NCBI GenBank assembly: GCA_021300575.1
Contig: JAJTDM010000038.1
Location: 62,001-126,000, forward strand
Direction of reading: 5' to 3'
Source of the DNA: Rubrivivax sp.
GTDB taxonomy: Bacteria > Pseudomonadota > Gammaproteobacteria > Burkholderiales > Burkholderiaceae_C
Length of the DNA stretch: 64,000 bases
Shown here: piece after piece, positions 44,498-47,780 of the stretch
Layout of the letters: each line of letters opens with the position of its first letter
How positions within the stretch are numbered: position 1 is the first letter of the stretch
Notes under the pieces: generated by a model
What the model was told of the DNA's origin: nothing
Seen by the model: the letters and a program-made list of their open reading frames with translations, nothing else
The model's database searches: none
Program-made: the position numbers and the translations under genes

Positions 44498-44944
44498 ATG
44501 AAGATGACATCTGCCGCCTTGCTGGCGGTCACGGCCCTGGCCTGGTCCGTGGGCGCCCTGGCCCAGGCCACGCCCGTGGGCCTGTGGAAGACCATCGACG
44601 ACGAAACCAAGCAGGAGAAGTCGCTGGTGCGCCTTGCCGAAGCCGGCGGCGTGCTGACCGGGCGCATTGAGAAGATCACCGACCCGACCAAGCAGGATGC
44701 CAAGTGCGAGAAGTGCGAGGGTGCCAAGAAGGACCAACGCGTGGTCGGCATGACCATCCTGGAAGGCGTGAAGCGGCACGGCGGGGCCGACCACTGGGAA
44801 GGCGGCACCATCCTGGACCCGAACAACGGCAAGGTCTACAAGGTGCGCCTGACGCCCAAGGAGGACGGCAAGTCGCTGGACGTTCGCGGCTACATCGGTG
44901 CCCCCATGCTGGGGCGTACGCAAACCTGGGTGAGGGTGGAGTGA
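44498..44944 (+). CDS. DUF2147-domain secreted protein
   Basis: A 148-residue protein with a signal peptide (AALLAVTALAWSVGALAQA) and a DUF2147 core: PVGLWKTIDDETKQEKSLVRL, a CxxC pair (KCEKCEGAKKDQ), VVGMTILEGVKR, GGTILDPNNGKVYK and GAPMLGRTQTWVR. It is a beta-rich periplasmic or surface protein of unknown function. It sits between the acyl-CoA dehydrogenase and the beta-oxidation genes, as is common in Comamonadaceae, and is followed by the repeat region. Confidence 0.88.
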   Translation: MKMTSAALLAVTALAWSVGALAQATPVGLWKTIDDETKQEKSLVRLAEAGGVLTGRIEKITDPTKQDAKCEKCEGAKKDQRVVGMTILEGVKRHGGADHWEGGTILDPNNGKVYKVRLTPKEDGKSLDVRGYIGAPMLGRTQTWVRVE

Positions 44945-44997
44945 TGCTGCGGCTTGGTGTTCCCTTTCGGGTCCGTCCCTCGCGGGACGGAAGCATC
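44943..44997. repeat. Hairpin next to the structured inverted repeats
   Basis: GATGCT (44943-44948) pairs with AGCATC (44992-44997), and inside TCCGTCCC (44972-44979) pairs with GGGACGGA (44984-44991) around a TCGC loop. There is no T-run. It may be a terminator-like stop for the DUF2147 transcript or a third, reduced unit of the neighbouring repeat family. Confidence 0.5.
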
Positions 44998-45077
44998 GGG
45001 TGACCCTCTCCGCTCATGTCCCCCGCCAGCAGCCTGCGGCCGCTGGCTCCTCCTTGACTTCGCTGCGAGGGTCACCC
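44998..45077 (+). repeat. Structured repeat, copy 1
   Basis: An 80-base unit bounded by an 11-base perfect inverted repeat, GGGTGACCCTC (44998-45008) and GAGGGTCACCC (45067-45077). Inside is a core (45013-45067) with CTCATGTCC, an inner stem GCCAGC/GCTGGC (45025-45030 and 45042-45047), and CCTTGACTTCGCTGCG. The same core recurs inverted at 45160-45213. The 44,945-45,305 gap has no gene; these repeats fill most of it. Confidence 0.8.
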
Positions 45078-45136
45078 GCCGCTCCCGTCTTACCTGCGTC
45101 TGGGGACGCCGACGCTTGCGTCCTGAATTGCTCCCT

Positions 45137-45241
45137 GGTCGGGAGGATGCGGCGTGTTGCGCAGCGAAGTCAAGGGGGAGCAGCGGGCGCCAGCCCGCTG
45201 CGGAGGACATGAGCGCAGCAATGCGCCGCATCCTCCCGACC
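45137..45241 (-). repeat. Structured repeat, copy 2 (inverted)
   Basis: A 105-base unit bounded by an 18-base perfect inverted repeat: GGTCGGGAGGATGCGGCG (45137-45154) and its complement (45224-45241). The core 45160-45213 is the inverse of copy 1's core, with the same unpaired blocks but a different inner stem, GCAGCGGGC/GCCCGCTGC (45180-45188 and 45193-45201). Stem sequences differ between the copies while pairing is kept. Confidence 0.8.
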
Positions 45242-45305
45242 CCGTGACAACGCTGGCCCGAGATCGGAAGAACCCTGCCACAGGAATCACCATAGAAAGA
45301 CGCAT

Positions 45306-47780
45306 ATGAACACCAACTTCCAAGTTCGCAAGGTCGCCGTCCTCGGCGCCGGGGTGATGGGGGCGCAGATCGCGGCCCATCTGGTCAATGTCAACGTGCC
45401 GGTGGTGCTGTTCGACCTCCCGGCAAAAGAGGGAGCGAAGAACGGCATCGTCACCCGGGCCATCGACAACCTGAAGAAGATCAAGCCCGCGCCGCTGGGC
45501 CTACCGGAGTTGGGCTCGCGCATCGTCGCGGCCAACTACGAGGAGCATCTGGCGCTGCTGACCGAATGCGACCTGGTGATCGAGGCCATCGCCGAGCGCA
45601 TGGACTGGAAGCTGGACCTGTACAACCGGATCGCCCCCGCCTTGGCCCCGCATGCGGTGGTGGCCAGCAACACCTCGGGCCTGTCCATCACCACGCTCTC
45701 CGAGACTTTGCCCGAGGCCGTGCGTTCCCGCTTCTGCGGCATCCACTTCTTCAATCCGCCGCGCTACATGCAGCTGGTGGAGCTGATCGCCACGCCGTCC
45801 ACGGACGCGGGCGTGATGGACAACTTAGAGACCTTCGTCACCTCGGCCCTGGGCAAGAGCGTGGTGCGGGCGAAGGACACGCCCAACTTCATCGCCAACC
45901 GCGTGGGCATCGCCGGCATGCTGGCCACGATGAAGGAGGCGCAGAACTTCGGTCTGTCGTTCGACGTCGTCGATGACCTGACGGGCAAGAAGCTCGGCCG
46001 CGCGTCTTCCGGCACCTTCCGCACCGCCGATGTCGTGGGCCTGGACACCATGGCCCATGTCATCCGCACCATGCAGGACAACCTGGGATCAGGCAAGGCG
46101 GCGGAAGACCCCTTCGAGGCGCTGTACGAGACGCCCGCCGTGCTGGCCGGCCTGCTGGCACAGGGGGCCCTGGGCCAGAAGACTGGGGCGGGCTTCTACA
46201 AGAAGGTGGGCAAGGACATCCAGCGCCTGGATGCGGCCACTGGCGCCTACGTGAGCGCGGGCGGCAAGGCCGACCCCATCGTCGAGCGCATGCTCAAGAA
46301 GCTGCCGGCCGAGCGCCTGAAGCTGTTGCGCGAGAGTTCCAACCCGCAGGCGCAGTTCCTCTGGGCCATCCTGCGTGATGGCTTCCACTACGCTGCGGTG
46401 CACCTGGCGTCCATCGCCGACACGGCGCGCGATGTGGACTTCGCGATGCGCTGGGGCTTCGGCGTGAAGCAAGGGCCGTTCGAGCTGTGGCAGCAGGCCG
46501 GTTGGAAGCAGGTGGCGCAGTGGGTGCAGGAGGACATCGACGCCGGCAAGGCCCTGTGCAACGCGCCGCTGCCCGAATGGGTGTGGGCGGTGGAGGGGGT
46601 GCATGGCCCCGAGGGTTCCTTCAGCCCGGCGCAGTCGAAGATCCGCCTGCACAAGATCGAACAGTCCCTTGGCCCGGTGAAGTTCTCGCTGGATGCCAAC
46701 CTCAGCAGCCTGGAGCATCTGCCGCTGAGTCCCCTGGTCGTGTATGTACGCCAGCCCTTCCGCGAGAACGTGGTGGGTTCCGGCGCGGCCGACCCCTTGC
46801 AGTCTGGCACGGAGCTCTATCGCAACGACGAGATCCGCGTCTGGACGCCCGATGGCGACATCGTCGTGGCCACCATCACGGCCAAGCTGCACCTCATCAG
46901 CCCGGCCGTCACCGAGGGTCTGCTCAAGGCGGTGGAGATCGCCGAAGGCGCCTACCGCGGCGTGGTGATCTGGTCGCCTGACGATGTGTTCTCGGCGGGC
47001 GCCAATCTCGAGTCCTTGATGCCGGTGTTCATGAAGCTGGGCTCCAAGGGCATCGCGCCGGAGGAGAAGAAGCTGCAGGACGCGATGCTGCGCATCCGCT
47101 ACGCCCAGGTGCCGGTGGTGGCCGCCGTGCGCGGCCTGGCGCTGGGCGGTGGCTGCGAACTGGCGGTGCATTGCGCGCGCCGCGTGGCCGGCATGGAGGC
47201 CTACATGGGCCTGGTGGAAGTGGGCGTGGGCCTCGTGCCTGGCGGTGGAGGTTTGGCCTACATCGCCCGCCGCGCCGCGGAGATGGCTGCGGCCGGCAAC
47301 GCGAACGCCGACATCTTCAAGTTCCTGACCGATGGCTTCACCAACGCGGCCATGGCCAAGGTGGGCACCAGTGCGCTGGAGTCGCGCAAGCTGGGCTACC
47401 TGCTCGAGGGCGACGTGATCGTGCCCCACAAGGATGAGCTGCTGTACGTGGCGCTGGTGCAGGCCAAGGCCCTGGCGGAGAGCGGCTGGCGCCCACCCGC
47501 GCGCGTGCCCTTCCCCGTGGCCGGACGCAACGCCAAGGCCACCATCCAGGGTCAACTGGCGAACATGCGCGACGGGGGCTTCATCAGCGCGCACGACTTC
47601 CATCTCGCCTCCTGCATCGCCGACGTGGTGTGCGGCGGCGATGTGGATGCCGGGTCGCTCGTGACCGAGGAGTACCTGATGGCCCTGGAGCGCCAGCATT
47701 TCTGCGCGCTCCTGGACCACCCCAAGACGCAGGAGCGCATCATGGGCATGCTGTCCACCGGCAAGCCGGTGCGCAATTGA
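45306..47780 (+). CDS. 3-hydroxyacyl-CoA dehydrogenase / enoyl-CoA hydratase (FadN-like)
   Basis: An 824-residue bifunctional beta-oxidation enzyme in the order dehydrogenase then hydratase, as in FadN of Bacillus and unlike E. coli FadB. The N-terminal NAD site is VAVLGAGVMGAQIAAHLVN, with IHFFNPPRYMQLVEL holding the catalytic His and NFIANRVGIAGML following. The C-terminal crotonase domain has AVRGLALGGGCELAVHC near residue 610 and VEVGVGLVPGGGGLAY with a catalytic-loop glycine patch. It is followed 30 bases later by the thiolase gene. Confidence 0.93.
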   Translation: MNTNFQVRKVAVLGAGVMGAQIAAHLVNVNVPVVLFDLPAKEGAKNGIVTRAIDNLKKIKPAPLGLPELGSRIVAANYEEHLALLTECDLVIEAIAERMDWKLDLYNRIAPALAPHAVVASNTSGLSITTLSETLPEAVRSRFCGIHFFNPPRYMQLVELIATPSTDAGVMDNLETFVTSALGKSVVRAKDTPNFIANRVGIAGMLATMKEAQNFGLSFDVVDDLTGKKLGRASSGTFRTADVVGLDTMAHVIRTMQDNLGSGKAAEDPFEALYETPAVLAGLLAQGALGQKTGAGFYKKVGKDIQRLDAATGAYVSAGGKADPIVERMLKKLPAERLKLLRESSNPQAQFLWAILRDGFHYAAVHLASIADTARDVDFAMRWGFGVKQGPFELWQQAGWKQVAQWVQEDIDAGKALCNAPLPEWVWAVEGVHGPEGSFSPAQSKIRLHKIEQSLGPVKFSLDANLSSLEHLPLSPLVVYVRQPFRENVVGSGAADPLQSGTELYRNDEIRVWTPDGDIVVATITAKLHLISPAVTEGLLKAVEIAEGAYRGVVIWSPDDVFSAGANLESLMPVFMKLGSKGIAPEEKKLQDAMLRIRYAQVPVVAAVRGLALGGGCELAVHCARRVAGMEAYMGLVEVGVGLVPGGGGLAYIARRAAEMAAAGNANADIFKFLTDGFTNAAMAKVGTSALESRKLGYLLEGDVIVPHKDELLYVALVQAKALAESGWRPPARVPFPVAGRNAKATIQGQLANMRDGGFISAHDFHLASCIADVVCGGDVDAGSLVTEEYLMALERQHFCALLDHPKTQERIMGMLSTGKPVRN

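Follow-up and report, generated by a model that had tools for sequence, protein, structure and literature searches.

Small mobile elements of soil and water bacteria carry inverted pairs of a structured unit that probably encodes a folded RNA

An inverted pair of structured units lies between a DUF2147 gene (44498-44944) and a beta-oxidation gene starting at 45306 (3-hydroxyacyl-CoA dehydrogenase/enoyl-CoA hydratase by Pfam) in the Rubrivivax sp. window, as the whole 64,000-nucleotide stretch of DNA analyzed is called here. The family to which the pair belongs is a large one of small mobile elements from soil and water bacteria, in which the letters of the stems vary freely and the fold and a short core are fixed. 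Judged from the sequence patterns described below, the product of each copy is probably a folded RNA that has not been described before. With moderate confidence, we explain the pair as a non-autonomous, MITE-like, terminator-homing mobile element carrying two divergent copies of one structured RNA, the term MITE-like being extended to the window pair from the rest of the family. Each unit is about 107 nt long and is made up of an outer stem P1 (~24 bp), a purine-rich conserved internal loop and an inner stem P2 (9-10 bp). The features of the region are listed by position.

44984..45091, minus strand (the folded strand): unit A, covariance-model score 98.6 bits
44985..45008, minus strand: unit A, first arm of P1, an inverted repeat in the register L-7..L-30 with R5..R28
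45009..45024, minus strand: unit A, conserved loop strand with invariant columns, the region reading CCGCTCATGTCCCCC on the plus strand
45025..45047, minus strand: unit A, inner hairpin P2 (arms 45025-45034 and 45038-45047), from the sequence and the P2 covariation of the family
45048..45066, minus strand: unit A, conserved loop strand with invariant columns, the region reading TCCTCCTTGACTTCGCTGCG on the plus strand
45067..45090, minus strand: unit A, second arm of P1, an inverted repeat in the register L-7..L-30 with R5..R28
45092..45135, no strand: spacer between units A and B, the gap between the model matches; both folded strands point away from it
45136..45242, plus strand (the folded strand): unit B, covariance-model score 105.6 bits
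45137..45160, plus strand: unit B, 5' arm of P1, from inverted repeat I3 and covariation
45161..45179, plus strand: unit B, conserved 5' strand of the internal loop (GCAGCGAAGTCAAGGGGGA), invariant columns
45180..45201, plus strand: unit B, inner hairpin P2 (arms 45180-45188 and 45193-45201), from sequence and alignment
45202..45217, plus strand: unit B, conserved 3' strand of the internal loop (GGAGGACATGAGCGCA), invariant columns
45218..45241, plus strand: unit B, 3' arm of P1, from inverted repeat I3 and covariation
45258..45274, minus strand: possible decayed outer end, weak; its complement GGTTCTTCCGATCTCGG resembles the ISL3 end GGTTCTTCGCCGATCTGCG by eye
44945..45305, no strand: stretch absent from the close relative G020, from comparison of the orthologous site

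The preliminary description of this DNA had reported two inverted copies with common unpaired blocks and with self-complementary stems that differ between the copies, and all of these are present in the sequence. Its blocks and stems were correctly drawn, except that the outer stems are longer than it gave: the ungapped arms extend over 28 nt in copy 1 (82% complementary) and over 24 nt in copy 2 (92%). The folding energy of the 318-nt region lies 7.3 standard deviations below that of dinucleotide shuffles, and none of 100 shuffles reached it. When the 64-kb window was searched with the covariance model of the family, units A and B, which are both among the training sequences of the model, were the only matches, with nothing else up to E=1. 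Above the gathering score, Rfam returned just two tRNAs from the 64-kb window, and a search of 44900-45320 at E up to 10 gave only sub-threshold eukaryotic families, the best of them at 26 bits against a cut-off of 168.

The fold was defined on 162 non-redundant units that were picked by their core only and kept from 180 after redundancy and edge filters. P1 was found to be 24 bp in one fixed register (L-7..L-30 with R5..R28) with mutual information of up to 1.44 bits; 3264 of its 3888 cells are Watson-Crick, and most of its positions show all four base-pair types. The covariance model was built from 59 of the 162 units, chosen for low redundancy and for at least 19 of 23 P1 pairs. This selection favors their paired percentage, which is 94.7% of the cells in the 59-unit alignment, and the 162-unit results are free of it. 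Changes on both sides were observed for 32 of the 34 pairs in this alignment. The number of cells changed on both sides was 709, compared with 197 after shuffling and at most 190 in slid registers, and the corresponding covariation values were 0.94, 0.20 and at most 0.16.

Mismatches in the stems are distributed very unevenly between the two strands. Across the 162 units, C.A or A.C mismatches outnumber G.T or T.G mismatches by 301 to 54 in P1 and by 47 to 7 in P2. Because a C.A mismatch corresponds to a G.U pair on the opposite strand, the imbalance is what selection acting on that strand would produce, and it was assigned as the folded strand. The fixed register, this strand bias and the 32 of 34 compensated pairs together lend strong support to the earlier proposal that the units are under selection for structure and are not a passive repeat. 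The grounds on which that proposal was to be given up, a lack of further copies or stems that do not pair, were not encountered, as the 3264 Watson-Crick cells of P1 attest.

On the folded strand the unit reads 5'-P1-GCGAAGUMAAGGRGGA-P2-GGRGGACAUGAGCG-P1'. The loop is the best-conserved part of the unit and is not self-complementary. Columns 26 and 85 form G26.A85 in 134 of the 162 units (Watson-Crick in 18) and columns 28 and 83 form A28.G83 in 139 (Watson-Crick in 7); the columns flanked by these two non-canonical pairs, 27 and 84, are variable and Watson-Crick in 105 of the 162. From this consensus, the P1-side part of the loop is predicted to be a helix of non-canonical pairs that continues into the invariant G29-C82, C30-G81, G31.A80 and A32.G79. 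The two R positions are anti-correlated: read on the other strand, the combinations CCC+TCCTC, TCC+TCCCC, TCC+TCCTC and CCC+TCCCC occur in 120, 26, 3 and 0 of the 162 units, respectively, so that a unit normally carries one GGAGG and one GGGGG strand.

The exact two-block pattern at the right distance was found 12 times in the genome from which the window comes, and the reversed control pattern 0 times. A relaxed pattern was found 18 times in that genome and in 13 of 61 relatives, all within the genus. A search with a covariance model, as proposed in the preliminary description, uncovered many further copies with covarying stems: 20 units in the same genome, and matches in 23 of 41 genomes of the genus (1-85 matches each, with 18 genomes lacking any). 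Across the order, 14 of 250 genomes were positive in a scan that scored at most 15 candidates per genome, and copy numbers there are lower bounds. In named genomes at least 117 stretches match the core pattern, and 15 of the 18 named genomes picked from these pattern matches were confirmed by the covariance model. The numbers of model units were 19 in Hydrogenophaga pseudoflava, 20 in H. flava, 21 in H. taeniospiralis, 25 in Sulfurisoma sediminicola, 2 in Rivibacter, 88 in Luteimonas terricola, 10 in Variovorax ginsengisoli, 3 in V. paradoxus ISL-79, 5 in Variovorax J22R187, 20 in Methylibium Root1272, 2 in Aquabacterium parvum, 12 in Caldimonas mangrovi, 9 in Pseudorhodoferax Leaf265, 50 in Paucibacter Y2R2-4 and 12 in a Xanthomonas MAG. 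The model found nothing in Paenibacillus, Pseudomonas T1-3-2 and Chitinophaga CB10, and their pattern matches are therefore considered to be due to chance. At E 0.01, no relative of the pair in the window turned up in collections of plasmids and phages, and two viral contigs matched the core pattern.

Several variants of the arrangement were seen. Genome G009 (L340, L342) has longer arrays of units in alternating orientation, with P2 flanked by TTTT, not CCCC. An extra module of ~70 nt, comprising a hairpin and a CACRAACAGTCC/GGACTGTTYGTG palindrome, lies between CTCATG and TCCCCC at L206 and L202 and, in G018, at L236, L241 and L251. In G018 stretches such as L240, L243 and L245 the place of the second unit is taken by a different palindrome in which GAGCG/AGCGA recurs and which may be a unit of a third kind.

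Among the stretches fetched, 42 pairs were identified, with a core-to-core distance of 89-156 nt. The C-rich strands of pair mates face each other, and the folded strands consequently diverge. It had been suggested that the two cores could pair into one long hairpin. Such a joint hairpin is indeed the minimum-energy fold of the whole window region, the unit cores being complementary, but the arms show no coupling: the P1 arms of mates scored 10.3 against each other and 10.6 against shuffled mates (P=0.81; 36 pairs, near-identical Luteimonas loci left out). This lack of likeness indicates that the units fold on their own. No obvious promoter was seen by eye in the spacers.

The location of the units relative to genes was determined with a crude gene caller for 100 loci, of which 63 lie between tandem genes, 1 is a tandem locus with a reversed pair, 29 are convergent, 3 are divergent and 4 fall inside a called gene. 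Pairs account for 28 of the tandem, 6 of the convergent and 0 of the divergent loci, plus the one tandem locus with the reversed pair; single units, meaning those whose partner did not match the pattern used, account for 35 tandem, 23 convergent and 3 divergent loci and the 4 within a called gene. Of 129 loci, 112 were kept as non-orthologous for the comparison of flanking genes, in which the scan covered 145 of 169 near and 148 of 181 far genes. Acyl-CoA dehydrogenases show a weak excess (7 of the 145 flanking genes) and are absent from the families with at least two members among the 148 more distant genes. No transposase cluster emerged as a recurrent neighbor of the units. The neighbor clusters that did emerge were ABC transporters, biotin-dependent carboxylases and acyl-CoA enzymes, partly from orthologous loci.

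The strand bias of the stems was the same in every gene context: 92:6 for the 47 units in sense orientation between tandem genes, 81:4 for the 44 in antisense orientation, and 70:10 for the 36 in convergent regions. The equal bias of sense and antisense units runs contrary to a pure mRNA device, unless a difference has been leveled by flipping or by frequent movement, and flips and moves may well be the cause of the equality. Given this equality and the great variety of the flanking genes, the idea of a processing device specific to the beta-oxidation genes was not borne out. As separate observations, biotin-dependent carboxylase and acyl-CoA dehydrogenase genes recur beside units, partly as one locus in several genera, and in the genome of the window trpB and trpA are separated by a unit in its folding orientation (L007, contig C128, about 1400-1600). 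The trpB frame there stays open across the full length of this unit (SEVKEEG...GDMS) and only then reaches its stop, which makes the structured stretch part of the translated sequence too.

Comparison with close relatives revealed that insertions differ from one genome to the next. At the window site the element is absent from G020, whose flanking genes are 96-98% identical; on its contig C1 a single base separates the DUF2147 stop codon from the fadB start codon. The gap comprises the whole 361-bp intergenic stretch, for which excision and deletion look alike. Other congeners have short intergenic stretches at this site, and the G011 contig starts 55 bases ahead of the start codon. Orthologous sites elsewhere have either elements that are 95-97% conserved or a replacement that spans the whole interval from the end of one gene to the start of the next. 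Thirteen chosen locus comparisons between G000 and G011, in which one-unit loci give one row, covered 276 P1 pairs: 191 were the same, 36 had changed on both sides and remained paired, 22 had a tolerated and 23 a broken single change, and 4 were broken by a double change. Among the copies listed from the genome of the window, no two are alike in both stems.

These comparisons bear on the possibility that the units are host-adopted 3'-end elements of the REP/ERIC kind, in which structure is kept locus by locus to stabilize or process the upstream mRNA and mobility is a thing of the past. The 36 compensated double changes among the 85 changed P1 pairs agree with it, as do the placement behind genes with avoidance of divergent regions, and the listed own-genome copies, which are never alike in both stems and have decayed-looking outer ends and stems that still pair. 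Antisense units nevertheless carry the same bias, and in a 97%-identical relative the window site has no element and other sites have replaced or flipped ones, which makes this explanation unlikely in our view.

Individual orthologs provide further detail. In the pair L010+/L202+, 16 of 23 P1 pairs are kept (background mean 8.2, sd 2.9), and the remainder are six compensated double changes and one tolerated single change, within flanks of ~97% identity. This change, faster than that of the flanks, suggests rewriting or exchange of the arms in one step. The pair mate of this unit matches its ortholog no better than it matches other copies. For L198+/L009- the best match is the opposite-strand unit of the ortholog (15 versus 12 for the next), which on sequence comparison reads as an in-place flip. 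L203-/L005+ (score 15) appears to be a second flip and is the weaker case because another copy scores 17. Whole P2 hairpins have also been swapped between orthologous units. Double changes too numerous for the divergence of the flanks, as in L010+/L202+, and the swapped hairpins are what would be expected of passive palindromes that template switching or ectopic exchange between copies keeps matched without selection. Copying of arms produces Watson-Crick pairs, though, and cannot yield a 301:54 strand bias, and the best-conserved part of the unit is a loop that is not self-complementary; we regard passive palindromes as very improbable.

The borders of the element are most readable in Luteimonas terricola, which has near-identical pairs. 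There the element is ~400 bp long with ends GGTTCWTCTCCC, and the unit pair is internal to terminal inverted repeats (TIRs). Of 33 Luteimonas stretches, 17 are distinct and have both ends. An intrinsic terminator (hairpin plus T tract) lies beside 16 of these 17 insertions, compared with 0 of 900 random positions, and 7 of the 17 have an 8-bp duplication with at least 7/8 matches, compared with 1.3 (maximum 5) in 500 shuffles. An ISL3 element carried by a plasmid of Xanthomonas sacchari has ends that agree with the Luteimonas ends at 18-23 of 26 positions, compared with at most 15 when one end was shuffled 2000 times. This element itself lies behind a terminator hairpin with a TTTTTTTT duplication on both sides. 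It was reached by a weak match to one end (E=5, one of six); the link is based on the second end, the duplication and the target, and is firm only for Luteimonas. Six further ISL3 copies were fetched. The five that came from plasmids of Cupriavidus, Pandoraea and Burkholderia have GGTTC at their ends and lie in A/T tracts, with duplications that match at 8/8 positions; no ends were obtained for the sixth, from Klebsiella. ISL3 elements of this group were seen to enter A/T tracts, with a terminator hairpin adjoining L285 and four of L317-L321 by eye.

In G018 the pair is bounded by a different TIR, at 380-540 bp, and the element ends in the genome of the window are decayed or different. Five further families of ends exist besides. 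A scan of 42 pairs for element borders gave no credible target duplication for the window pair and most others. Ends of the GG(C/T)T type occur upstream of P1 in 13 of 47 units from this genome and two relatives (control 9%), and the ends of six strong ISL3 copies from the genus and one named genome showed no convincing TIR plus duplication. Autonomous elements were sought as well. For the TIR of G018 and G027 only short spacings were found among the pairs derivable from a 10-genome list, and in Luteimonas the listed end pairs are 216-392 bp apart with none at 1-3 kb.

The features by which MITEs are recognized are thus distributed over the family: short non-coding elements with TIRs in the Luteimonas and G018 forms, target duplication in Luteimonas (7 of 17) together with presence/absence polymorphism (the window site being empty in G020), and, in the Luteimonas form, the homologous ends and 8-bp duplication of an ISL3-derived MITE. 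A transposition element, one of the alternatives raised initially, fits well with the many copies, the inverted pairs and the insertions that differ between close relatives. A transcribed structured RNA, another of those alternatives, would fit together with it, as a strand-specific fold carried by a mobile element.

A different account of the strand-specific fold is that it forms in single-stranded DNA, as a hairpin that an HUH nuclease or a recombinase would recognize, in the manner of REP/REPIN, IS200/IS605 or attC systems, with the inverted pair as the two ends. Integron attC sites combine variable stems with fixed unpaired bases, and they have RYYYAAC/GTTRRRY boxes at the stem base. The variable stems and fixed unpaired bases of the units recall this logic, G.T is also tolerated in DNA hairpins, the bias is independent of gene orientation, and the inverted-pair layout is REPIN-like. 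In a set of 60 genomes, the Y2 transposase PF04986 was present in all 3 that had model matches and in 8 of the remaining 57; one of the three PF04986 matches is weak, and the numbers are too few to weigh. Against a single-stranded DNA fold, the attC boxes are absent from the 59-unit consensus by eye, and the Luteimonas units are internal to the TIRs of an element of the double-strand (DDE) type. Moreover, Y1_Tnp (PF01797) was detected in 11 of 23 unit-positive and 11 of 18 unit-negative genomes of the genus and is absent from the high-copy genomes G063 (85 units), G012 (52), G018 (51) and G024 (19). We therefore consider this account improbable, and a RAYT-driven REPIN was rejected on the finding that Y1_Tnp presence does not track unit copy number. 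The ISL3 transposase PF01610 was likewise rejected as a presence marker: strong matches are confined to G000, G020, G003, G016, G026 and G297, none was found in the Luteimonas draft, and they do not track copy number. Weak PF01610 matches of ~410-450 aa occur across the genus, and the two that were read (L293, L310) are fatty-acid-desaturase-like, of about 407 aa.

The initial doubt that a simple REP or terminator could account for the units was well placed: by eye, no T tract follows P1 of either window unit on the folded strand, and Y1_Tnp does not track the family. Like REP/BIME/REPIN sequences with RAYT, the units are intergenic, palindromic and present in many copies and in inverted pairs; they differ in their ~107-nt length, in two nested stems without conserved sequence and in the missing association with Y1_Tnp. 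ERIC, BOX and NEMIS/Correia are small, non-autonomous, MITE-like bacterial repeats that share with the present family their intergenic position and transcribable palindromes. Here, in contrast, stems covary between copies, their strand bias is strong, and the element bears two copies in divergent orientation. With ISL3 elements and their MITEs the Luteimonas form has in common both ends, the 8-bp duplication and the T-tract target of the Xanthomonas ISL3 copy, whereas its interior is a structured unit pair and not IS-derived, and other genomes have other ends. Repeats such as ERIC, BOX and NEMIS/Correia are also named in PMC3110155, which describes BRE (Hot et al. 2011), a ~90-bp GC-rich intergenic repeat of Betaproteobacteria, including Comamonadaceae, with mobile features. 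BRE is the nearest described repeat, compared here by description and not by sequence; it forms tandem arrays, and the part of the paper available to us describes no fold or inverted pairs (PMC3110155). The GTAG- and CGTC-tagged REP superfamilies are likewise palindromic genomic repeats, of 20-40 bp according to the abstract of PMC3733652, a size at which the present units show no nested stems with a conserved internal loop. No description of this unit family was found in the open-access literature, and the core strings, among the matches listed, appear in what look like primers in unrelated work.

How a terminator-homing element with two divergent RNA copies might operate can be sketched as follows. 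Copies would be moved in trans by DDE transposases, of the ISL3 type in Luteimonas, and terminator homing would keep their insertion harmless, which would account for the position of copies directly behind genes and for their near absence between divergent promoters. Read-through from either neighbor would then give one unit in folding orientation, so that a divergent pair would work however the element lands or flips. The fold would act as RNA, with the purine-rich internal loop, its tandem G.A pairs and its one GGAGG and one GGGGG strand as a binding or catalytic core. An RNA role is favored because double-strand transposition of the ISL3 type, if it moves the element, would not need the folds as single-stranded DNA ends. 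As to the molecular role of such an RNA, 3'-end protection or protein binding would be our likeliest guess. More tentatively, the units may represent a novel class of bacterial structured RNAs in which a purine-rich core of ~30 nt lies between two sequence-free helices (a topology of small ribozymes and aptamers), carried as divergent twins in terminator-homing transposons of Burkholderiales, Rhodocyclales-labelled genomes and Luteimonas, and with read-through always making one working RNA.

Bacterial MITEs are usually recognized by their conserved sequence. In this family the stem sequence is free and conservation is limited to the fold and a short core, so that such families escape ordinary repeat searches. 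The strand bias of stem mismatches provides a simple test for which strand works, and the targeting of terminator T tracts by this group of ISL3 elements can be tested separately. Should the RNA prove functional, it would represent a class of structured RNA that has its own means of copying and spreading and homes preferentially to transcription terminators, and this class could be tested directly in culturable genera such as Hydrogenophaga, Paucibacter and Luteimonas.
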